Shown here: positions 7,526 through 50,164 of the stretch, piece by piece
Layout: each line of letters starts with the position of its first letter
Position numbering within the stretch: the stretch's first letter is position 1
Assembly (NCBI GenBank): GCA_937124965.1
Contig: CAKZLB010000013.1
Location: 124,001-188,000, forward strand
DNA from: an uncultured Bacteroidota bacterium
GTDB lineage: Bacteria > Bacteroidota > Bacteroidia > NS11-12g > UBA9320
Length of the DNA stretch: 64,000 nt
Direction of reading: 5' to 3'
The notes under the pieces: model-generated
Database searches by the model: none
What the model saw: the letters and a program-made list of their open reading frames with translations, nothing else
What the model was told of the DNA's origin: nothing
Program-made: the position numbers and the translations under genes

Positions 7526-10500
7526 ATGAAATCACGTCGTCACATTTTATTAAGCCTATTCTTAATAACTGCTCTGCATATTTTTGCTGATACAAGTCAA
7601 ACTTGGATCAACAGTAGTGAATATTACTACAAAAGCGACAAAACTGGTGAGGTTTCATTCGTCAGATTTAATGTTGAAAGTCAGCCATTGTTTCAAGAAT
7701 GGCGGTTAGCTTTAAGTGATTTCTACCAGTTAGATTCATCTTATTCTTGGGTGTTTAAAGAAGATGGTCTGATGGTAAATGAATATGAAATTTCCCACAG
7801 ACGCATGAACTTGTACTATCATGGTGTGCCAGTGGAAGGAGCATACGCCGTAGCACACATAAGGCGAGGCAAAGTGATGTCATTCAATGCTGAGGTGTTT
7901 CGACCAACGAGACAACTTGCTCAAATAGGTTTTTCTCAAGCACTAAAGAAAGCTAAACTTGATCTTAAGTGTGAGGTTGGTATGTGGGAAGTTCCGAAAT
8001 GTGAACTTTTCTTGAAAAAAGAATCACAAAACAAAAATGCTACGTTTTACCCCATTGAACAATTGGTTTACACAACCACTTTCAATGACAAGGGTTTTAA
8101 AATAGAACTTGCCTATAAAATTGACTTATACTCCTTTCAACCTTTTTTCAGAAATTGGGTTTACGTATCTGCAACATCAGGAGGAATTATTCATACAGAA
8201 ACAAGAATTCATGAAACAAATGTTATTGGCACTGCTGTAACAAAATATTCGGGGACCCATGCAATGACTACAGATAGTGTTAGCTCACAACAATACAGGT
8301 TGCGAGAGTCAACTAGAGGGAATGGTATTGCTACATATAACTTGAAGAAGAACAAAACCTATAGTTCTGCCACGGACTTTTTAGATAGTAACAATTATTG
8401 GGACAATGTAAATGCAAATAAGGATGAAATTGCAGGTGATGTCCACTGGGGAACAGGAGCGACTTATGATTTTTACGATTCTATATATAACAGAAATAGC
8501 ATTGACAACAAGGGCTTTGCACTGAACTCATATGTCCATTATGATTCAGGTTATGCAAATGCTTTTTGGGACGGGAGTCGAATGACATATGGGGATGGGA
8601 ATAGTTCAGTTGGACCATTAACCAGTTTAGATATCGTTGGACATGAAATTACACATGGACTTACAACGAACACGGCAAATCTGATTTATCTATATGAATC
8701 AGGAGCATTAAACGAATCCTTCAGTGACATACTATCCATTGCAATAGAGTTTTGGGCAGATTCAGTTCGAGCTGACTGGCTTCTGGGGGAAGATGTTGTT
8801 TCGGGAGGAATTCGCAGTGCTTCCAACCCTAACTCAAAAGGTCAGCCTGACACGTACAAAGGTCGAAACTGGTACTACGGAAATAATGACAATGGTGGCG
8901 TACATACCAATTCTGGCGTGCAGAACCACTGGTTCTATCTATTAGCTGAAGGTGGAACCGGAATTACGGATTTTGGTGATAGTTTCAACGTTGCAGGTAT
9001 CGGAATTAAAAAGGCAACAGATATAGCATACCACAATCTTACTGGTTATTTAGGCAGATACTCTAAATATGAAGATGCAAGAAGGTTGTCTATTGAAGCG
9101 GCTTATGATTTATATGGCAAATGCTCTAAAGAAGTCCAATCAACACGAGACGCGTGGCATGCCGTGGGAATTGGAGAACGCACTGACACAATAATACAAG
9201 CTCGTTTCACTCATACTCAGAATATGTTTTGCGACACACCTGCAACCGTATTTTTTTATGTCAACACAAACTATGTTGACAGCGTGGTTTGGGATTTAGG
9301 CAACGGAGTAACAAGTTCTAAAACAAATCCGTTTACTAGTTACAATACCTTTGGGAGCTATGACATAAAGTTAAAAGTTTTTTCTTGTTCTGGGGGGATA
9401 GATAGTATTACAAAGTCAAATTTTGTGGTTATTGATTCTTCTTCTAGAATCTGTAAAACAACGGTAATGCCTCGCTCAGGGAAAGGGCCTACTCAGACTT
9501 TTTGTGAAGGAATTTTGGAGGACGATGGTGGATCTTCAAGTTACAGCAACAATACAAACTCAACTGTCACAATCGACCCACCTGGGAACGACACCATTAC
9601 GCTAGACTTAAAAAGTTTTGGTTTTGCTAAAAACGACTCACTATTGATTTATGATGGGACTTCTACAAGCGACAAATTGTTAGCTGCACTGACCACGGGA
9701 GGATCAACAGGAGTGTATTATGCCACTTCCGGAGCCGCCACAATTAGGCAGTTTTCTAACAACGTTGACGTTTCCTCAGGTTTTTCAATCGAATGGTCGG
9801 TACCATACAGTAAAAGCAATCCAATTGCCTCATTTACAATACCCAGTCAAGCCGGTTTTAATTCGGATGTTCAGTTTGCAAACACCTCTACGGGTGGTGG
9901 ACAATACTTCTGGGATTTTGGTGATGGAACATATTCCATAGAACAAAACCCGACACATAGGTATACAAAGACGGATACATTTCAAGTGCGATTAATCGCA
10001 GAGAATTGTATAGGCAGAGATACCACAAGTTATAAAACATTAATCATTGATGGTGCTCCAATCATGACGATTTCACCTCAAACTATCTACGACACCTTAT
10101 GGACTGGAGACACCAGCGTAAAAAGTGTAAAAATATACAATACTGGTACTGGAGGCTTGACTTTAAACGTTGAGCCTTACAGTGCTCATAAAACGCAAAA
10201 AAGCAATGTAGACATCTGTATGTTTACACACTACACCAAAGACACCAGCGCTATTCATATGGTTGATTCGATTTTTTCTATTGATTACGCATCAACAAGA
10301 ATGTGGGAGTATAAGAGCCACGACACATCGCTTTTAAAACATTACCTAAACTTTTGCGGCGTGGTTATCATACCAAACGGAATGTATTATGGAACAAAAA
10401 TTCGAGGATTAAACGATATTCTAGATACCTACGTAAGGGACGGTGGGTTAATTATTTTGACGGGGAGCGGCGACATCGATTGGATGTTCTATCTTGGATT

Positions 10501-17309: not shown

Positions 17310-17604
17310 CATCAATTTCCCAACAACCGTCTTCTTCCTAGGTTACTATAAAATAACGAATAGCAGATAGCTAAATCGAAAGGTTTTGTACGGAATTATT
17401 TTCTCCTACAGGTATCTGCCAAATAGTGGAACACATGATTTGACACTGAGCCCAAATGGCGTGTTAGGTTTATTTGATCATTGTGGTGGTCTTCCATTTT
17501 AGGCCTTGAGGATTTGACCATTTTCTGCTTCCGATTTCTTTTTCACCAGTGTATTTTACAAATCACACTATTTACTTGCCACTTCAGCCGTAGTTTGACC
17601 GACA
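17310..17604. other. Gene-free stretch between the LamG and oligopeptidase genes
   Basis: About 300 nt with no supported gene. A + strand frame of some 43 codons contains YLPNSGTHDLTLSPNG but has no convincing start and no recognisable family; it may be a relic or chance. I see no terminator hairpin with a T-run. Confidence 0.4.
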
Positions 17605-40117: not shown

Positions 40118-42535
40118 CTAAAACGTAATTCTGTAAATTCCGATTGGGAAAAGGCCTGTTTGATACGTTGTTCGATACTCCTGTGCTTCCGCATCATATT
40201 GCATAGAGAAAATATTCTCGCGATTTGAAATGTTTTGAATATCAACACCCCATTCTTGCGTAATTTTCTTTGCTTGAACTTTGTAGGCAAGCCGGATATC
40301 ACATCGTGCATAATCTTGATATTGAAGTTCATTCGTCCGAAGTCTATAATAAACAACTTCACCTTCATTTCCAGTTGCTTCCGTATTAACAGGAGTGTGT
40401 CTTTGGCCGCCATTTAAAACAAATTTCAAATCTACAGTCAAGCTACTTTTAGACGTTTTACCTTTTTTGTTTGTCATAGTTTTGAAGTAAAACTCTTTCC
40501 CTCCCAAAACGTTAACCGCGTATTTGGAATCAAACACAGTTGGGTATTCTTGTCCGTCACGTGCTGTGTAAAGTGATCGATATAATGACACTGTATTCAA
40601 GAAATAGAAACCTTTTGACAAAAATCGTTCAAAGGTTATTTCCAAACCCACGTTTCGACCTAACCCTGAATTCTGAAGATTATCGGTAAAATTAATTCCA
40701 AAATCGGCGCCTTGGTTTAACATTGAATAATACAGATTTGTATCACCATCCATTGGCACGTCAAACATATGTTGATAATACGTTTCAACTTTTAATCGAG
40801 CATTATCACCAATATAAAAATCATGGGAAAGAACAAAGTGGTGACTTTTTGTAAAGCCTAAATCTTGATTTATTTTTCGTTTGTTTCCAGCGCTGTCCGT
40901 CACTTCTTCAAAATACACTCTAAATGGTGATATCAAGCTATGCAACCCATAACCAGCGCTCACCTCATATTTGCTTGTTACCTTATACTTAATTCCAAGT
41001 CTTGGTTCTAGCGACTGTGCTCCGTTAAGCGCAAAACGAGAATAGTTTAAACCAATATTTGCTTTAAGTCTATTGTTAAACCTGTGGCGATGGTTTACAA
41101 AAGCCTGTAACATGGAAGTTGCACCAGAAAAATCAGTTGGCTGAACCCAAAAGCGATATTGACTTGAGAAGAGACTGTCTTGAAGATTAAAGAAATAATC
41201 ATAGTATCGTACACCTGCCTTTAGTGCATTTTTTGCATTAAACTTATGCTCTATTATCGCATTCAACGAATACTTTCCTTGTCTAGAATCGTCACGATAC
41301 TTGCCTCCAAGTTCAGTGATCATTCCATCCTGCAAAACAAAAGTATCTAGTATCGTTTTGGTTTGAACAGCGTCAACTGCGGCTATTAGTTTTAGATTCG
41401 TTTTAGTGGATAGTTTGTGTTTTCTGGAAATTCCAAATACACCAGTGTTAGTGTTGTAGGCTAAATCTTCCTGGTCGCCTCGGTACGCATTTGCACCAGC
41501 GTCATCTTCACTTTGAAAAAGTTCAAGACCACTTAAACCTCCAACGCCGAATATACTCGTAGTTCCTTTTTTATCAGGAAAATTAAGTTTCATGGTTACG
41601 TCTTGATACTGTGGAATTGCAGCTCCAGTGCCAAAGTCTAAGCCAATAGTTTGAAAAAAGCCTAATACCGAATATCGATAATTGATTAAATATGATGATT
41701 TCCTTTTTCGAGAAATTGGCCCTTCAGCCATCACTTCAAACCCTGCAAAACCCACCTGACCTAAAAATTCGTGTTTGTCATTGTTACCTTCCCGCATTCC
41801 CAAATCAAATACTGCTGAAGTAGTATTTGCGTATTCGGCGGGAAACGCTCCCGTAAGAAAGTCAGAATTCTTGAGCACATTATTGTTTAACATACTCACC
41901 GGACCACCAGTTGTTCCGGCTGCCGCAAAGTGGTTAGGGTTTGGAATGTCGACTCCTTCTAAACGATACAACACACCAATGGGTGAATTCCCACGAACAA
42001 TGATATCATTTCTAAAATCGTTTGCACCTTGCACACCTGCAAAGTTTTGAGCCATTCGAGCTACGTCTCCCCTACTTCCAGCATATCGTTGCGACTCTTC
42101 AACTGAGAACGTCCGTCCACTAACGCTGACGACATTATTTTGGACTTTCCGTTTGTCTTTAGACATATCAATTACCGCAGCTTTTAATTTGTTTGTAGTT
42201 TCCTGCATTTTAAGAGACAGAACTACTTGTTTGCTAGAGGTTACTTCAATTTGATTCAAACGAACTACTTCATATCCTGCGTAGGAACATATTACAGTAT
42301 AACGACCAACTGCGATTCCTTCGATTCGAAAATCCCCATTTTCATCACTCAGCGCTCCGTATTGGTTAGAATCATTAAAGACCTCAATGGTCGCTGCTAT
42401 TAATACTTCTTCGGTAACTATATCTTTAACCGAACCACGTATTGTTTGGGACAATTGTGCGTACGAATACGACGAACTTAGGAGAATGGAGCTTAACAGT
42501 AAAAGAATGTAACATGTAATGTTTCGTGCATTCAT
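40118..42535 (-). CDS. TonB-dependent receptor with carboxypeptidase-like regulatory domain
   Basis: An 805-residue outer-membrane receptor. Signal peptide ends near SSSYSYAQ. A CarboxypepD_reg-like beta domain follows (about 33-115: GSVKDIVTEEVLIAATIEVF, GRYTVICSYAGYEVV), then the Plug (about 130-250: FAGVQGANDFRNDIIVRGNS, GVDIPNPNHFAAAGTTGGP) and a 22-strand-type barrel ending in FPIGIYRITF with the terminal aromatic. This is the Bacteroidota SusC-like form that imports ligands too large for porins. No SusD partner is adjacent, so substrate cannot be inferred; a peptide or metal-chelate receptor is possible. Two 20-bp direct repeats lie 77-116 nt upstream of its ATG. Confidence 0.93.
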   Translation of the reverse strand: MNARNITCYILLLLSSILLSSSYSYAQLSQTIRGSVKDIVTEEVLIAATIEVFNDSNQYGALSDENGDFRIEGIAVGRYTVICSYAGYEVVRLNQIEVTSSKQVVLSLKMQETTNKLKAAVIDMSKDKRKVQNNVVSVSGRTFSVEESQRYAGSRGDVARMAQNFAGVQGANDFRNDIIVRGNSPIGVLYRLEGVDIPNPNHFAAAGTTGGPVSMLNNNVLKNSDFLTGAFPAEYANTTSAVFDLGMREGNNDKHEFLGQVGFAGFEVMAEGPISRKRKSSYLINYRYSVLGFFQTIGLDFGTGAAIPQYQDVTMKLNFPDKKGTTSIFGVGGLSGLELFQSEDDAGANAYRGDQEDLAYNTNTGVFGISRKHKLSTKTNLKLIAAVDAVQTKTILDTFVLQDGMITELGGKYRDDSRQGKYSLNAIIEHKFNAKNALKAGVRYYDYFFNLQDSLFSSQYRFWVQPTDFSGATSMLQAFVNHRHRFNNRLKANIGLNYSRFALNGAQSLEPRLGIKYKVTSKYEVSAGYGLHSLISPFRVYFEEVTDSAGNKRKINQDLGFTKSHHFVLSHDFYIGDNARLKVETYYQHMFDVPMDGDTNLYYSMLNQGADFGINFTDNLQNSGLGRNVGLEITFERFLSKGFYFLNTVSLYRSLYTARDGQEYPTVFDSKYAVNVLGGKEFYFKTMTNKKGKTSKSSLTVDLKFVLNGGQRHTPVNTEATGNEGEVVYYRLRTNELQYQDYARCDIRLAYKVQAKKITQEWGVDIQNISNRENIFSMQYDAEAQEYRTTYQTGLFPIGIYRITF

Positions 42536-42611
42536 TTCAATTTCGTTTTAGTGGTTAATCATTTTTGTGATGCAATGTTAACTTCCCATCTAAATACTGT
42601 GCAAGTCATCG

Positions 42612-42651
42612 GAATGAAAATAGTATGAACGGGACGAAAATTTGATGAACG
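42612..42651. repeat. Two 20-bp direct repeats upstream of the TonB receptor (candidate operator)
   Basis: GAATGAAAATAGTATGAACG (42612-42631) and GGACGAAAATTTGATGAACG (42632-42651) are adjacent and match at 15 of 20 positions, including GAAAAT and ATGAACG. They lie between the anti-sigma stop and the receptor start, at a distance expected for a promoter region. A period of 20 bp would place a dimeric regulator on one face of the helix. Confidence 0.5.
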
Positions 42652-42697
42652 GACTTTTTAACGTGATGATTGGGAAACAATTTGGGTTAAACAGTCA

Positions 42698-44218
42698 CTA
42701 CCTAAACCGATAACTTAATCGCAGTTCCGAGTTAATTCTCGAGAAGTTTAAATCGTTTAACAGCTGGTCACTTTGTTCAGTTCGCAATGCAAATTTCGAT
42801 TCTAGCCCTATCAAAAAACGATGACCAACGTTATAATTTATACCGACACCAGCTATAGCTGCAAAGTTCCACTCAGAAGATTTTGAAAAGGGTAATTCTG
42901 AAAAACTTTGAGTCCCAGAGTCAAATGATGATCCGGTTAATGATGTTACGTTGTTGCCAATGACACCGACAAGTGTATTTATTGTAAAGTCATACCTAGA
43001 ATCAATTTTATAGTATGCCAATAGCGGAATTTGGACGTTTCTAGTAAATATTTTATCTGCAAGAATCTCTTTTCGAAGTTGAGTATTAAATCGTGTGGAG
43101 TCTATCACTTCCTCAACTAGCCAATATTTTACTCCTTCTACATAATATTCCTGCGAACGAACAATTACACTTGTATCATATGAATACGCATACTCGTCGG
43201 CCATAATTTGCTGATTAAACTGAAATTTTGATTTCTGGAAGCCAACAGACAACCCATATTTCTGGCGATCATAGCGCACATCGAACCCCATATATCGTGA
43301 TGCAATTCCAGTTATGTCATATTGATAGTCTGCATAGAATACTGTAGATTTTGAATTTAATGGCTGAGAAATTCCACTGAAAGCAGAAACGTACCAACCA
43401 GCACTCGGTTTGCCGAAACAATATCTTCTGAAATCAATATCATATTCGTTCAACACCTCTCTTGTGTGGTGGTAAAGCGTATTTTCCTCTTTTGCATCTA
43501 GAAACAGTAATTCATCGTGTGAGACTATATAACCATCGTTTATAATCTCTGTATTTGTATTCTCTTCCGAACTCTTGACTTCCGATGATGCAATTGGCGC
43601 CTGGTTAATTTCTTGTGTCTTTTCAACTTCTTTTTGATTGCGAACAGGTGAACCATATCCACTAGGACGCATTTTTTTAGTCTTTACTAAGTTTCGACTT
43701 AGTTCTTGATTATTGAGTAGCGCTTGGTGAACTTTAGGATTCGAAATATTTGTTGTTTCCTTACTTTGCACATTTGTGCCTAGTGTATTGGAGTAACTTG
43801 ATTTAGTCAAACTCGTAGTCTCAAACTCTAGTTTTTCAGTTTCTTGCTCGGTGTAAGCTACACTTCCCTTTGTTAGTGATTTCTGGTCGTTTGAGTCATT
43901 CGTATTTTGTAAAGTTGATAATCTAATGGTCTCGTTCTTTTCAGTAGGTTGCTTATTTTCTGTGTTAGAATTAGAAGAACTTAGTAGTTCTATGTTTTCA
44001 CTGGTGAATTTTGAATCCAGTCTCTGCTGGAACATCAAAAGTGCAGTTATCACAGCAATTAGTGCACTAATTGTATACGTTTTCCACGTCCAAAAAACCT
44101 TCTTTTTTGGTTGGATTAACTTTTCAGCCTCTTCCCAAGCATGTGGTTCAAACGGAACCACTTCTTTCTCAAGATGCTCTCTAAAAAGTTCGTCGATATG
44201 TTTATCCTCCATGCTCAT
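42698..44218 (-). CDS. Predicted dual-membrane-spanning anti-sigma factor with outer-membrane beta-barrel
   Basis: ATG 44218 is chosen because it overlaps the sigma stop (ATGA, 44215-44218) and removes an upstream non-homologous extension. The 506-residue product begins with a short cytosolic anti-sigma-like segment (DELFREHLEKEVVPFEPHAW, with the PxxxW pattern of Bacteroidota anti-sigma proteins), then one inner-membrane helix at about 47-63 (TYTISALIAVITALLMF). A Ser/Thr/Asn-rich linker of roughly 200 residues follows, then a C-terminal beta-barrel-like region (about 280-506) ending INSELRLSYRFR. This order matches the dual membrane-spanning anti-sigma (Dma) architecture described in Bacteroides. 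It probably holds the sigma factor at the membrane and releases it on envelope signals. Confidence 0.8.
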   Translation of the reverse strand: MSMEDKHIDELFREHLEKEVVPFEPHAWEEAEKLIQPKKKVFWTWKTYTISALIAVITALLMFQQRLDSKFTSENIELLSSSNSNTENKQPTEKNETIRLSTLQNTNDSNDQKSLTKGSVAYTEQETEKLEFETTSLTKSSYSNTLGTNVQSKETTNISNPKVHQALLNNQELSRNLVKTKKMRPSGYGSPVRNQKEVEKTQEINQAPIASSEVKSSEENTNTEIINDGYIVSHDELLFLDAKEENTLYHHTREVLNEYDIDFRRYCFGKPSAGWYVSAFSGISQPLNSKSTVFYADYQYDITGIASRYMGFDVRYDRQKYGLSVGFQKSKFQFNQQIMADEYAYSYDTSVIVRSQEYYVEGVKYWLVEEVIDSTRFNTQLRKEILADKIFTRNVQIPLLAYYKIDSRYDFTINTLVGVIGNNVTSLTGSSFDSGTQSFSELPFSKSSEWNFAAIAGVGINYNVGHRFLIGLESKFALRTEQSDQLLNDLNFSRINSELRLSYRFR

Positions 44219-44778
44219 GTTGCACTCATTTTTTGTTTTTCTCCCATGGTTTGCAGTCCGATTTTTAATAATTGGCGGGCTTCTGAAACGTGCCATTTTG
44301 AAGTCCCTTCACTAATTTCTAGTAGCTTACTTATTTCCTTATGTGAATACCCATCTATTGCAAATAGGTTAAACACATGGTTCGTTTTAGTGGGTAATGC
44401 TTTGAGCAATTGTTTGAGATATTCCGCATCTAACTTCTGTTCTCCTGTATTTAAAGTCGAGGTATATGTCGATAAGTCTGCATGATCTATACTTTCAGTA
44501 CGGTCTCTTTCGATGCTCGCTTTTTTAATTTCAGTAAGCATTTGGTTGATAATAATTCGTTTTGCCCAACCCTCAAAAACATCTAAGTCTTTTAGCTCAT
44601 TTAAATTGCTAAGTATTTTTACAAACGCTGTGTTTAACGAAACAACAGCATCGTTCTTATTTTCACGATAACGAATACACATCCCCATAAATCGATCATA
44701 CAATAAGCGATACAGCTCCGACTGAGCTTTCCGCTCTTCTCGAAGACACCCCTCTAATATGTTTTGATCAATTTTCAT
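44215..44778 (-). CDS. ECF-type RNA polymerase sigma factor
   Basis: The 187-residue protein starts at ATG 44778; the TTG at 44796 adds six residues inside an upstream hairpin and is less likely. Region 2 spans about 20-95 (ELYRLLYDRFMGMCIRYREN, NLNELKDLDVFEGWAKRIII) and region 4 about 125-180 (LLKALPTKTNHVFNLFAIDG, YSHKEISKLLEISEGTSKWH). There is no region 1 or 3, as in group 4 sigma factors. A 4-nt overlap couples it to the anti-sigma gene. It would drive an envelope-stress regulon; the receptor gene beyond the anti-sigma is a candidate target. Confidence 0.9.
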   Translation of the reverse strand: MKIDQNILEGCLREERKAQSELYRLLYDRFMGMCIRYRENKNDAVVSLNTAFVKILSNLNELKDLDVFEGWAKRIIINQMLTEIKKASIERDRTESIDHADLSTYTSTLNTGEQKLDAEYLKQLLKALPTKTNHVFNLFAIDGYSHKEISKLLEISEGTSKWHVSEARQLLKIGLQTMGEKQKMSAT

Positions 44779-44780
44779 AA

Positions 44781-44813
44781 AAAAGAAAATGGCCAATAAA
44801 ATTGACCATTTCC
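44781..44813 (-). terminator. Intrinsic terminator-like hairpin directly before the sigma start codon
   Basis: On the - strand AAATGGTCAAT pairs with ATTGGCCATTT (one G-U pair) around a short loop, followed by TTCTTTTTTATG, so the T-run reaches the sigma ATG. It should end transcription from the gene at 44829-46883, or act as a leader hairpin for the sigma gene if a promoter lies upstream. Confidence 0.7.
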
Positions 44814-46990: not shown

Positions 46991-47026
46991 GCACATTACG
47001 AAATAAATATTTCGTTATCGATGTGC
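46991..47026 (-). terminator. Hairpin at the 3' end of the LytTR regulator gene
   Basis: A nested inverted repeat: outer arms GCACAT/ATGTGC and inner arms ACGAAAT/ATTTCGT around a 4-nt loop, overlapping the stop codon at 47015-47017. On the - strand it is followed by TGTTTTAAAGG, only a partial T-run. Terminator or mRNA 3'-end structure; the AAATATTTCGTT motif also recurs near 46945. Confidence 0.4.
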
Positions 47027-47878
47027 TCCGTCTTGAATTTTTTTGATAATTTCTTTTGAAAAAGAGCGAGAAACAGGAATTGTAAAATCGAGCTCAGGTA
47101 TGTGTAAATTGTAATTGCGTGCATTACCACTAACCTTTTCTACTTTGTTGAAGTTTACAATATAAGAACGATGACATTGCATGATTCTTTCTTGATTGTC
47201 GAAGTATCCCGCCACGGTAGATAATGAATTTCTTAAAAGATGGAATTTAATATTTCCGTGATCTTCATAAAACACCTTGGTGTAATTACCTTCAGCTTTG
47301 ACACAGACTAAATCATCTTCTTCAACTTCAATTTCAATTTTACCAGTGTCTGATTTCATCGAAATTATGGTGTGCGACTGGTTCCTATCAGAATGAACAA
47401 TCTGCTCCGTCAACTCATTGGCCACCTGTTCATGTTGATTAGACAGATACCTTTCCATCAGAATTACTTCAAATGCACTTGGAATAACTCCTACAGCCAG
47501 CGTTATATACAAAAAGTCCAGAAACGACATTAGGTCCAAAGGTGTGCCGCATGACATAGTTGAATACAACCAATTAAATATGGAAATTGATCCAAATTGA
47601 AAAACTGCAAAAAGAAGCATCTTTTTAACCGTCCATTGGTCGCGATCAAAAAATCGGGGAAACGCCATTGGAAACACAAAATAAGCAGTCAATGTTACAA
47701 GAAGCGTTATTAAACCAAAGCCAGCTACTACTGATAGAAGCCCACTTTCTTGTTGAGCAAGTCCAAAAGGTTTAAATACAAAAAGAAACAGGAAAACGAA
47801 AAAAGAAAAACCAAAGCTTGTTATCAATTTATGACGAACCTCTTCTACAAAAGGGAAGGGTTTGTCTAAAATCGTCAT
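47015..47878 (-). CDS. Membrane-anchored LytTR-family transcriptional regulator
   Basis: A 287-residue protein. Residues about 20-145 form four membrane helices (FGFSFFVFLFLFVFKPFGLA, LITLLVTLTAYFVFPMAF, LLFAVFQFGSISIFNWLY, FLYITLAVGVIPSAFEVILM). The C-terminal part (about 185-285) is a LytTR DNA-binding domain (VCVKAEGNYTKVFYED, IMQCHRSYIVNFNKVEKVSG, FTIPVSRSFSKEI). It lacks a receiver domain, so it is not a classical response regulator but a one-component membrane-bound regulator, a type common in Bacteroidota. It starts 24 nt after the aconitase stop and may be co-transcribed with it. Confidence 0.9.
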   Translation of the reverse strand: MTILDKPFPFVEEVRHKLITSFGFSFFVFLFLFVFKPFGLAQQESGLLSVVAGFGLITLLVTLTAYFVFPMAFPRFFDRDQWTVKKMLLFAVFQFGSISIFNWLYSTMSCGTPLDLMSFLDFLYITLAVGVIPSAFEVILMERYLSNQHEQVANELTEQIVHSDRNQSHTIISMKSDTGKIEIEVEEDDLVCVKAEGNYTKVFYEDHGNIKFHLLRNSLSTVAGYFDNQERIMQCHRSYIVNFNKVEKVSGNARNYNLHIPELDFTIPVSRSFSKEIIKKIQDGAHR

Positions 47879-47902
47879 CCTGATTGCGGTTTTTAGGAAA
47901 CC

Positions 47903-50164
47903 TTAATCTGCTTGTTGTTTTATTAGGTTTAACGCACTACCGGCTTTAAACCAATCTATTTGAGAATCGTTGTAGGTATGGTTAACCATGATAGTATCTT
48001 TAGAACCATCTTCATGGTTTAAGATAACACTCATCTGTTTTCCTGGAGCAAACTCATCTAACATAATATCAAACGTGTCTTTTTCCTGAACCAAATCATA
48101 GTCTGCTGGATTTGCAAAAGTCAACCCTAACATTCCTTGTTTCTTAAGATTTGTTTCATGGATACGTGCAAATGATTTAACGATTACCGCTCTTACCGCC
48201 AAGTGTCTTGGTTCCATTGCAGCATGCTCTCTAGATGAACCTTCACCGTAGTTTTCTTCACCAACTACAACCGAATACTCACCAGCTGCTTTAATCATTC
48301 GTGCAACCTTTGGTACGCTTTCATAACCTCCTGTTAACGGATTATAAACCTCGTCTGCCTTTTCATTGAAGTAATTAATCGCTCCAATTAAGCAGTTATT
48401 TGAGATGTTATCTAGATGTCCTCTGTAGGTCAACCAAGGTCCAGCCATTGAAATATGATCAGTCGTGCACTTGCCTTTTGCTTTGATTAACAATTTAGCA
48501 CCCACGATATTCTTTCCATCCCAAGCAGCAAATGGCTCCAGGAGTTGTAATCGCTTAGAATCTGGGTTAACAACAACATCTACACTTGATCCGTCTTCAA
48601 CTGGAGCGAGGTAACCATTATCTTCAACGTCAAAACCCTTTGGAGGAAGTTCAATACCTGTAGGTTCGTCAAGCATCACGTCTTCACCGTTTGCATTTTT
48701 CAATGTATCTGTCATTGGATTAAAATCCAATCTACCAGAAAGCGTAACAGCTGCAACTATTTCAGGTGAACCAACGAATGCGTGTGTATTTGGGTTTCCA
48801 TCTGCTCGTTTACTAAAGTTTCTGTTAAACGAGTGAACGATAGTATTTTTTGGCTTACCACTTGCACCAGCTCTTTCCCATTGTCCGATACACGGTCCAC
48901 AAGCATTTGTAAATATCTTTGCATTCAAATCTTCAAAAATTTGAAGTAATCCATCACGTTCTGCTGTAAATCGAACTTGTTCTGAACCTGGGTTAATCCC
49001 AAGTTCTGCTTTCATTGGAATTCCTTTATCTACCGCTTGTTTAGCTATTGACGCAGCTCTTGAAAGGTCTTCATATGATGAATTTGTACAAGATCCAATT
49101 AGTCCCCACTCTACATCTAACGGCCAATCGTTTGCACGAGCTTTCTCTCCTAGTTCTCCAACTGGAGTTGCTAAATCTGGCGTAAATGGTCCGTTTAAGT
49201 GTGGGCGAAGTTCTGAAAGGTTGATTTCTATTACTTGGTCGAAGTATTGTTCTGGATTAGCATAAACTTCATCATCGCCAGTTAGATGAGCTCTAACTTC
49301 ATTTGCAGCGTCAGCCACATCCGCTCGGTCAGTTGCTCTCAAATAGCGCTCCATGCTATCATCATACCCAAATGTTGAGGTGGTAGCACCAATCTCAGCA
49401 CCCATATTACAAATCGTACCTTTTCCAGTACATGATAAAGACTTAGCACCTTCACCAAAATATTCGACAATCGCTCCTGTTCCGCCTTTTACGGTTAGGA
49501 TGCCTGCCACTTTGAGAATTACATCTTTTGGAGCCGTCCAACCACTAAGCTTACCAGTCAACTTAACACCAATTAACTTAGGGAACTTTAGCTCCCAAGG
49601 CATGCCTGCCATAACATCAACAGCATCCGCACCACCAACACCGATAGCAACCATTCCTAATCCTCCTGCGTTCACAGTATGAGAATCAGTACCAATCATC
49701 ATTCCCCCTGGGAAAGCATAGTTTTCAAGAACAACTTGATGAATAATACCTGCACCTGGCTTCCAAAAACCAATTCCGTATTTGTTACTTACTGACTCTA
49801 AAAAATTAAATACCTCATTACTTGTATTTAAAGCATTTTGTAAATCTTCGTCTGCGCCAACTTTGGCCTGAATTAAGTGATCACAATGCACAGTAGTTGG
49901 CACGGCAACTTTTTTCTTGCCAGCTTGCATGAACTGTAAAAGTGCCATTTGAGCGGTTGCATCTTGACATGCTATTCTATCTGGAGAAAAGTCCACATAT
50001 GAATTTCCTCTTTCGTAAGGAGTGTTCGGCAAGTTATCCCATAAATGAGCGTATAATATTTTTTCACTGAGTGTTAACGGTTTTCCAGTCAACTGCCTAG
50101 CCGCTTCTACACGTTCGCTAATTTTGCTATAAACTTCTTTAATGAGATTAATGTCGAATGCCAT
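47903..50164 (-). CDS. acn: Aconitate hydratase
   Basis: A 753-residue TCA-cycle enzyme that interconverts citrate and isocitrate using a [4Fe-4S] cluster. The cluster Cys lie in [13 protein letters not shown] (near 358) and [14 protein letters not shown] (near 423 and 426). Other signatures are [22 protein letters not shown]-like [20 protein letters not shown] and [14 protein letters not shown]. Length matches the mitochondrial-type aconitase group found in Bacteroidota, not the longer AcnA (about 890) or AcnB. A TACATTTG promoter element precedes it, and the LytTR regulator follows after 24 nt. Confidence 0.96.

Follow-up and report, generated by a model that had tools for sequence, protein, structure and literature searches.

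A tandem repeat in front of a TonB-dependent receptor gene of an uncultured Bacteroidota bacterium as a probable part of a LytTR-type activator operator

What could two adjacent, closely matching 20-bp units be doing in the 162-nt gap between a putative anti-sigma gene and a TonB receptor gene? The units lie at 42612–42631 and 42632–42651 of the window, as we call the whole 64-kb stretch of DNA analysed here, and the tandem repeat that an original prediction had drawn from the letters alone proved exact in its coordinates and in its match, with 15 of 20 positions identical. The prediction had also placed seven nucleotides between the shared blocks GAAAAT and ATGAACG; the actual inner spacing is 3 nt (GAAAAT-N3-ATGAACG), and on the coding (minus) strand of the receptor the unit reads CCGTTCAT-N3-ATTTTC.

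The repeat pair and its neighbourhood

No other period-20 tandem with at least 15/20 identities is present in the 64-kb window, for which a first-order Markov model expects 0.25. Simulated by Markov models, the 162-nt gap yields an equally good period-20 pair with p = 0.002, and shared blocks of 6 nt plus 7 nt with p = 5e-5 at period 20 and p = 0.0022 over all periods from 14 to 30. Under a looser criterion, any tandem of period 10–30 with at least 75% identity, the pair is unremarkable (p = 0.24). The fold z, −0.19, gave no indication of an RNA hairpin, and a hairpin or Rfam element was rejected on this value and on the absence of an Rfam match in 42400–42900. A simple scan of 42450–42800 returned no terminator-like or sigma-70-type site, and no phage match was found.

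The gene that follows the repeats (40118–42535, minus strand) encodes an 805-aa protein with an N-terminal CarboxypepD_reg domain identified by Pfam. Its AlphaFold2 model (pLDDT 77, pTM 0.69) matches TonB-dependent transporters in the PDB, the best being 8bmx (E 6e-21), and among 21 members of the receptor family Pfam found a Plug domain in 14 and a barrel domain in 3, neither being detected in the window protein at E 0.01. By its predicted fold and the Plug matches of its family, the window receptor is a TonB-dependent transporter. The best fold match is a B12 transporter, which, since the identity is only 13%, says little about the substrate of the receptor.

On the other side of the gap, the minus-strand gene at 42698–44296 encodes a 532-aa protein in which, by eye, a cytoplasmic N-terminus is followed by a single membrane helix and, at the C-terminal end, by an outer-membrane barrel; its match to OMP_b-brl_2 is below the cut-off, and it would span both membranes if this layout is right. 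This barrel gene, the putative anti-sigma gene, overlaps the end of an ECF sigma gene (44215–44796). Directly after its stop codon we noticed an imperfect 11-bp inverted repeat with a 23-nt loop (42652–42696), which overlaps the upstream edge of box 1 (see below) and received neither a terminator call nor fold significance. Farther along, in 47015–50164 (minus strand), a gene for a membrane LytTR protein starts 24 nt after an aconitase gene, an order kept in the same-genus genome G003. There, aconitase and LytTR are found at one contig end, which falls inside the LytTR gene, and receptor, DUF2269 and isomerase genes at another, which falls inside the receptor gene, so that the region orthologous to the window's receptor upstream is absent from this assembly. 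The barrel protein, which in the window is encoded between LytTR and receptor, has no clear homologue in G003 (best E 4.6e-4; assembly 84% complete), and a later insertion between the two genes would fit.

A 21-bp array upstream of the receptor family

Receptor homologues were taken from 58 genomes (our own and 57 relatives) and from one scan of public genomes, of which we kept the best 80 loci of at least 589 tblastn-confirmed stretches. A usable start and upstream sequence was available for 70 of these loci, and with 35 further regions, minus 3 near-duplicates, we obtained 102 non-redundant upstream regions, in which all 256 4-mers were scanned without bias at periods 12–40. TTCA at 21 bp ranked first, occurring in 23 of the 102 regions (shuffle mean 2.2, maximum 7 in 300 shuffles), and CATC, TCAT and ATTC at 21 bp, which belong to the same motif, ranked second, third and fifth. 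Columns outside the selection are also conserved in the 23 seed sites from 18 regions, namely C at +5 in 21, C at −3 in 17 and T at +13 in 20, and the seed alignment gives a repeat unit of approximately ACRNTTCATCC-NNN-AATTTYT, with a conserved T-rich stretch at +12 to +14.

With a leave-one-out matrix, 34 of the 102 regions exceeded the 99% shuffle level, at which about one is expected, and the window was one of them; 40 exceeded the 95% level, leaving 62 below. Chains of three boxes with both links of at least 9 were observed in 16 regions, again with the window among them. The family includes cultured members such as Cyclobacterium plantarum (L137) and Dyadobacter soli (L192), the boxes of the latter exceeding only the 95% level. 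As controls we used the upstream sequences of neighbouring ORFs, for which we took the longest ORFs that did not overlap and had at least 150 aa, without refining their starts. TTCA at period 21 precedes 20 of 67 receptors versus 8 of 285 neighbouring ORFs (Fisher 2.8e-10, such values being optimistic because the sequences are related by descent), and the full array TTCA-21-TTCA-42-WTTG precedes 12 of 67 versus 0 of 285. By sequence comparison, about one third of the sampled receptor relatives carry two to three direct repeats of about 9 bp, ACRNTTCAY, every 21 bp with a 12-bp spacer.

The array also has a preferred position. Distances from TTCA to TTTG, scanned without selecting for repeats (background mean 3.05, sd 2.3), peak at 42, 63 and 84 nt, in 15, 15 and 8 of 101 regions, respectively, and 57 nt also stands out (9 of 101). 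The three main distances are found in 15, 14 and 6 of the 67 receptor upstreams versus 4, 7 and 5 of the 285 neighbouring-ORF controls, and the boxes of the family commonly stand at a fixed distance from a putative TAnnTTTG-like −7 element. In Flavobacterium, according to the accessible text, the −7 box has the consensus TAnnTTTG and occupies −12 to −5 (PMC9723704). With the −7 box at these positions, our own arithmetic places the last box of the family at about −54 to −46 and the preceding one at −75 to −67; by our own count, the gap between box and −35 is 10 bp if the −33/−7 spacer is taken as 19.

In the window, on the minus strand, we identified box 1 (TCCGTTCAT, 42645–42653), located in the second of the two repeat units, box 2 (CCCGTTCAT, 42625–42633), located in the first and separated from box 1 by an 11-bp spacer (period 20), and a degenerate third box, box 0 (CCCAATCAT, 42666–42674), with a 12-bp spacer from box 1 (period 21). 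On the same strand there is a candidate −7 element, TAACATTG (42573–42580), of the TAnnTTTG class with 5/6 consensus positions, whose sequence resembles the housekeeping type, and, 21 nt before it, a candidate −33 element, CTTG (42602–42605), suggested by the sequence. A family matrix built without the window scores the pair of boxes 1 and 2 at 15.9 with no penalty for period 20, and at 14.1 with such a penalty and a slightly different seed set. Box 0 was found by the leave-one-out family matrix (p = 0.0033), and it is through the pair of boxes 0 and 1, at 21 bp, that the window passes the 99% level. When the 300 nt upstream of the window's receptor were simulated in 20,000 Markov versions, none contained two chained links as strong.

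The main pair of the window departs from the family rule in two ways: its spacing is 20 bp, and it stands 11 nt farther than normal from the promoter, with 53 nt rather than 42 separating box 2 from the ATTG of the −7 candidate, one helix turn extra. A possible promoter-proximal box, B' (TATTTTCAT, 42614–42622, minus strand, register uncertain), has its TTCA at the family's usual distance, 42 nt before this ATTG, with a poor surrounding match. Its possible partner, A' (AATTTTCGT, 42634–42642, minus strand), lies 20 bp from it and is weak by the matrix, which gives the A'–B' pair a score of only about 0. The two conserved blocks of the original prediction may be two interleaved sets of boxes, either register being possible. 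By our own counts, the distance to −35 is 19 bp for box 2, and the weak box B' is 8 bp from CTTG.

The distribution of the boxes among the nearest receptors is uneven. The closest homologues (L047, L048 and L049/L116, with 58–60% identity) have no boxes, and L117–L120 (46–48% identity) have none at the 95% level. The receptor tree places the window in a set of 14 (SH-aLRT 98), together with L047, L048, L116–L120, L146, L160 and L122–L125, in which boxes at the 95% level are present in the window, L123, L124 and L125. On the tree, neither the box labels nor the LytTR labels cluster significantly, and many gains or losses would be needed. Conservation in relatives, the comparison that the original prediction had called for, was therefore absent in the three closest homologues and present in the receptor family.

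In the own genome, CCGTTCATNNNATTTTC, the motif of the window, was found with no more than 2 mismatches at 53 places versus 45 for the reversed control, and the motif pair, with up to 3 mismatches, at 20 places versus 29 for the control. By these counts, the window's exact motif shows no regulon; the genome-wide enrichment that had been suggested as a check was not found, and a random distribution across the genome, which the prediction had named as evidence against it, is roughly what the exact motif shows. Forty places were fetched (30 of the 53 and 10 of the 20). Seven of them fall outside any ORF of 100 aa or more, 4 belonging to the window's own array and 3 lying elsewhere (L007, L015 and L023). 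An earlier whole-unit search had followed the prediction in using inner spacings of 5–9, a range outside which the spacing of 3 at the window's own site falls. A local covariance model of the family, built from 27 of 28 listed sites, gave no enrichment and no indication of a regulon, and did not report the window's own period-20 site in a search that scored 150 of 2654 first-look candidates, nor in a second search run with default filters. A strict pattern searched in 296 genomes of the phylum (189 with a match) was set aside, many of the matches listed being simple repeats and recurrent look-alikes. At 17562 of the window (plus strand) a single-pair match to the family matrix scores 21.3, stronger than the window's own site. 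The lack of a genome-wide signal would be explained by an operator with a single target, as is stated for YpdB in the accessible text of PMC4847170.

These observations bear on whether the repeats are a product of chance, or of a recent local duplication, without function. Such an origin would agree with the modest rarity of the pair taken alone under the looser criterion, with the closest homologues having no boxes, with a period of 20 that is off the family period and with the exact motif showing no genome-wide enrichment. However, the array, box 0 included, is recovered by a matrix to which the window did not contribute, and its chain was not reproduced in any Markov version, and we regard an origin without function as very unlikely.

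LytTR genes beside the receptor

The original prediction had proposed that the repeats could be used by a LytTR-type regulator encoded nearby. The gene at 47015–47878 (minus strand) encodes a 287-aa LytTR protein (Pfam LytTR 9e-12), with a by-eye hydrophobic N-terminal half and a C-terminal LytTR domain; no receiver domain was found, and Pfam gave nothing beyond LytTR at E 0.001. This gene is about 4.4 kb from the repeats, on the same strand as the receptor, and of the 12 LytTR genes of the genome it is the only one whose product lacks a receiver-like start (first 60 residues, by eye).

A gene with a LytTR domain was present within the fetched flanks of the receptor in 27 of the 80 loci, always on the strand of the receptor. 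In 24 of these 27 it is downstream of the receptor and matches by blastp the own-genome response regulator L039, and in L156 an L039-like LytTR protein is encoded upstream. In the one such regulator scanned with Pfam, that of L142, Response_reg and LytTR were both identified, and the gene between receptor and regulator had a His_kinase match in all three loci scanned (L128, L142 and L183). In L122 and L133, a homologue of the window's membrane LytTR protein is encoded directly upstream of the receptor; both proteins share 30% identity with it over 287–289 columns (E 5e-31 and 2e-43, single comparisons), and they rank first and second among its matches in 22 chosen genomes when the own genome is set aside. 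Since homologues occupy this position in two other genomes, the nearby LytTR gene is a plausible partner, as had been suggested. The next-best match is in the genome of L123, where no receptor was found within the 16 kb fetched around it. Two further arrangements were noticed: in L189 (Crocinitomix; 8203–10111, minus strand), receptor, kinase-sized ORF and LytTR regulator are followed by two genes on the opposite strand, one ECF-like by blastp and the other an ORF of 478 aa of no known kind, and in L163 (6408–7949) two extra ORFs, with ferredoxin-like and LysE-like starts by eye, separate the receptor from the kinase-sized ORF and the LytTR gene.

Boxes and linked LytTR genes occur together. 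At the 99% level, boxes were found in 18 of 27 loci with a linked LytTR gene versus 7 of 29 without (p 0.0015), and at the 95% level in 22 of 27 versus 8 of 29 (p 6e-5). The sample comprised 55 loci with at least 2 kb downstream, or 56 by a second rule, which keeps loci with a LytTR match despite short downstream sequence and so carries a slight bias in favour of the association. The region upstream of L122, the locus with an adjacent membrane LytTR, scores below the threshold (5.7), and by our own count its layout, TTCG-20-ATCA-41-TTTG, is near the family rule. With an element class that recurs across the receptor family and LytTR genes that are linked to this family, the proposal of a LytTR-type regulator gains support.

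The boxes could instead bind another direct-repeat activator, for example of the AraC/XylS type, a monomer of which would contact TTCATCC and the following AATTT tract. The conserved T-rich stretch could then be a second contact box, and of the 34 regions that exceed the 99% level, 16 had no LytTR gene found adjoining (L116–L195 scanned, some flanks short). Against this stand the co-oriented LytTR genes beside the receptor in 27 of 80 loci, and a spacer, and possibly a promoter distance, like those published for LytTR (PMC6193735, accessible text), and we consider this activator type unlikely.

Use of the repeats by the adjacent sigma system, as operator or promoter of the ECF sigma factor (44215–44796), had also been put forward. 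It is suggested by the closeness of the repeats to the sigma gene and to the putative anti-sigma gene that encodes the barrel, and by the TTCGTCC of the repeat unit, which we take to resemble ECF −10 words. ECF promoters, however, consist of two short elements, not of 21-bp arrays; the array recurs without ECF-like ORFs, which blastp detected close to the receptor in no more than 4 of the 80 loci (L170, L189, L192 and L195, two of them short matches), and the −7 candidate is of the housekeeping type. We therefore judge this use to be highly improbable.

A probable LytTR-type operator and its likely regulator

These data are best explained by a LytTR-type activator operator, since a 21-bp phased, promoter-anchored array precedes a gene that is often LytTR-linked, and, judging from sequence, we think it likely that the repeats are part of such an operator in the promoter of the TonB-dependent receptor. 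If the broad LytTR 9-mer consensus is taken as [TA][AC][CA]GTTN[AG][TG], box 1 would fit it by eye at 9/9 positions, box 2 at 8/9 and box 0 at 6/9. The window 9-mers are separated by 11 nt (boxes 1 and 2) and 12 nt (boxes 0 and 1), within the 11–13-nt spacer range of LytTR operators, which are described in the accessible text of PMC4847170 as direct repeats of 9–11 nt. A LytTR protein would bind adjacent boxes on one helix face and, once bound, would assist RNA polymerase where the −33 element of the promoter is poor, so that receptor expression would be raised when the signal of the regulator is present; we infer activation rather than repression.

As to which LytTR protein would act, the membrane-anchored one encoded at 47015–47878 is the most likely regulator here, a choice that we hold with middling confidence. 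Next come the 11 other LytTR proteins of the genome, foremost among them that of a histidine-kinase/LytTR pair at about G000:C13:446 kb, homologues of which adjoin the receptor in other genomes. In the 350 nt before the own-genome histidine kinase gene no boxes were seen by eye, and one weak match (11.7) was found further up.

Several known LytTR systems, as described in the accessible texts, have similar operators. The Escherichia coli YpdB operator lies upstream of yhjX, a putative transporter gene stated to be the only direct target of YpdB, and has, like the family, a pair of direct repeats that end in TTCAT; the repeat, GGCATTTCAT, is spaced by 21 bp in the printed oligonucleotide (PMC4847170). 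It differs in its enterobacterial promoter and unrelated target, whereas the window pair is 20 bp apart and the window's candidate regulator has no receiver. LytTR sites mostly have 12-bp spacers, with a minority of 11 or 13, and a strong bias to 10 bp upstream of −35, the repeats of hdrRM and brsRM lying 8 bp upstream of it (PMC6193735). The LytTR Regulatory System operons HdrRM, BrsRM and their relatives resemble the present case in their 9-bp repeats with mostly 12-bp spacers near −35 and in a membrane-tied LytTR protein (PMC6193735), but they have a separate membrane inhibitor and an autoregulated operon, while here the membrane part and LytTR are one protein and the target would be a TonB receptor. 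The AgrA sites of P2/P3 in Staphylococcus aureus are direct repeats centred near −60 (PMC4227749), as is the family pair by our own count, in a firmicute promoter with a quorum-sensing target. In the open literature, outside which most subscription papers fall, we found no description of a LytTR operator at a TonB receptor, nor of targets of Bacteroidota LytTR proteins.

We tentatively propose, as a possibility that we rate below an even chance, a widespread Bacteroidota signalling cassette in which the synthesis of a TonB receptor would be set by a LytTR protein reading tandem TTCA boxes, either through a linked kinase/LytTR pair or, in the branch of the window, through a DNA-binding, membrane-anchored LytTR protein. 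TonB receptors are known to be tied to transcription by ECF/anti-sigma systems, as in FecA-type surface signalling, and by SusCD/hybrid two-component systems. As in FecA-type signalling, transcription of the receptor would be coupled to a membrane signalling route, but the regulator here appears to be a LytTR protein, not a sigma factor; if the proposal is true, the cassette would add another such link between a TonB receptor and transcription. What was an isolated repeat becomes a specific hypothesis of what Bacteroidota LytTR proteins may control and of how an as yet uncharacterised family of TonB receptors may be regulated, a family with at least 589 tblastn-confirmed stretches, for which the putative operator offers a defined probe and its fixed geometry predicts which promoters should respond.
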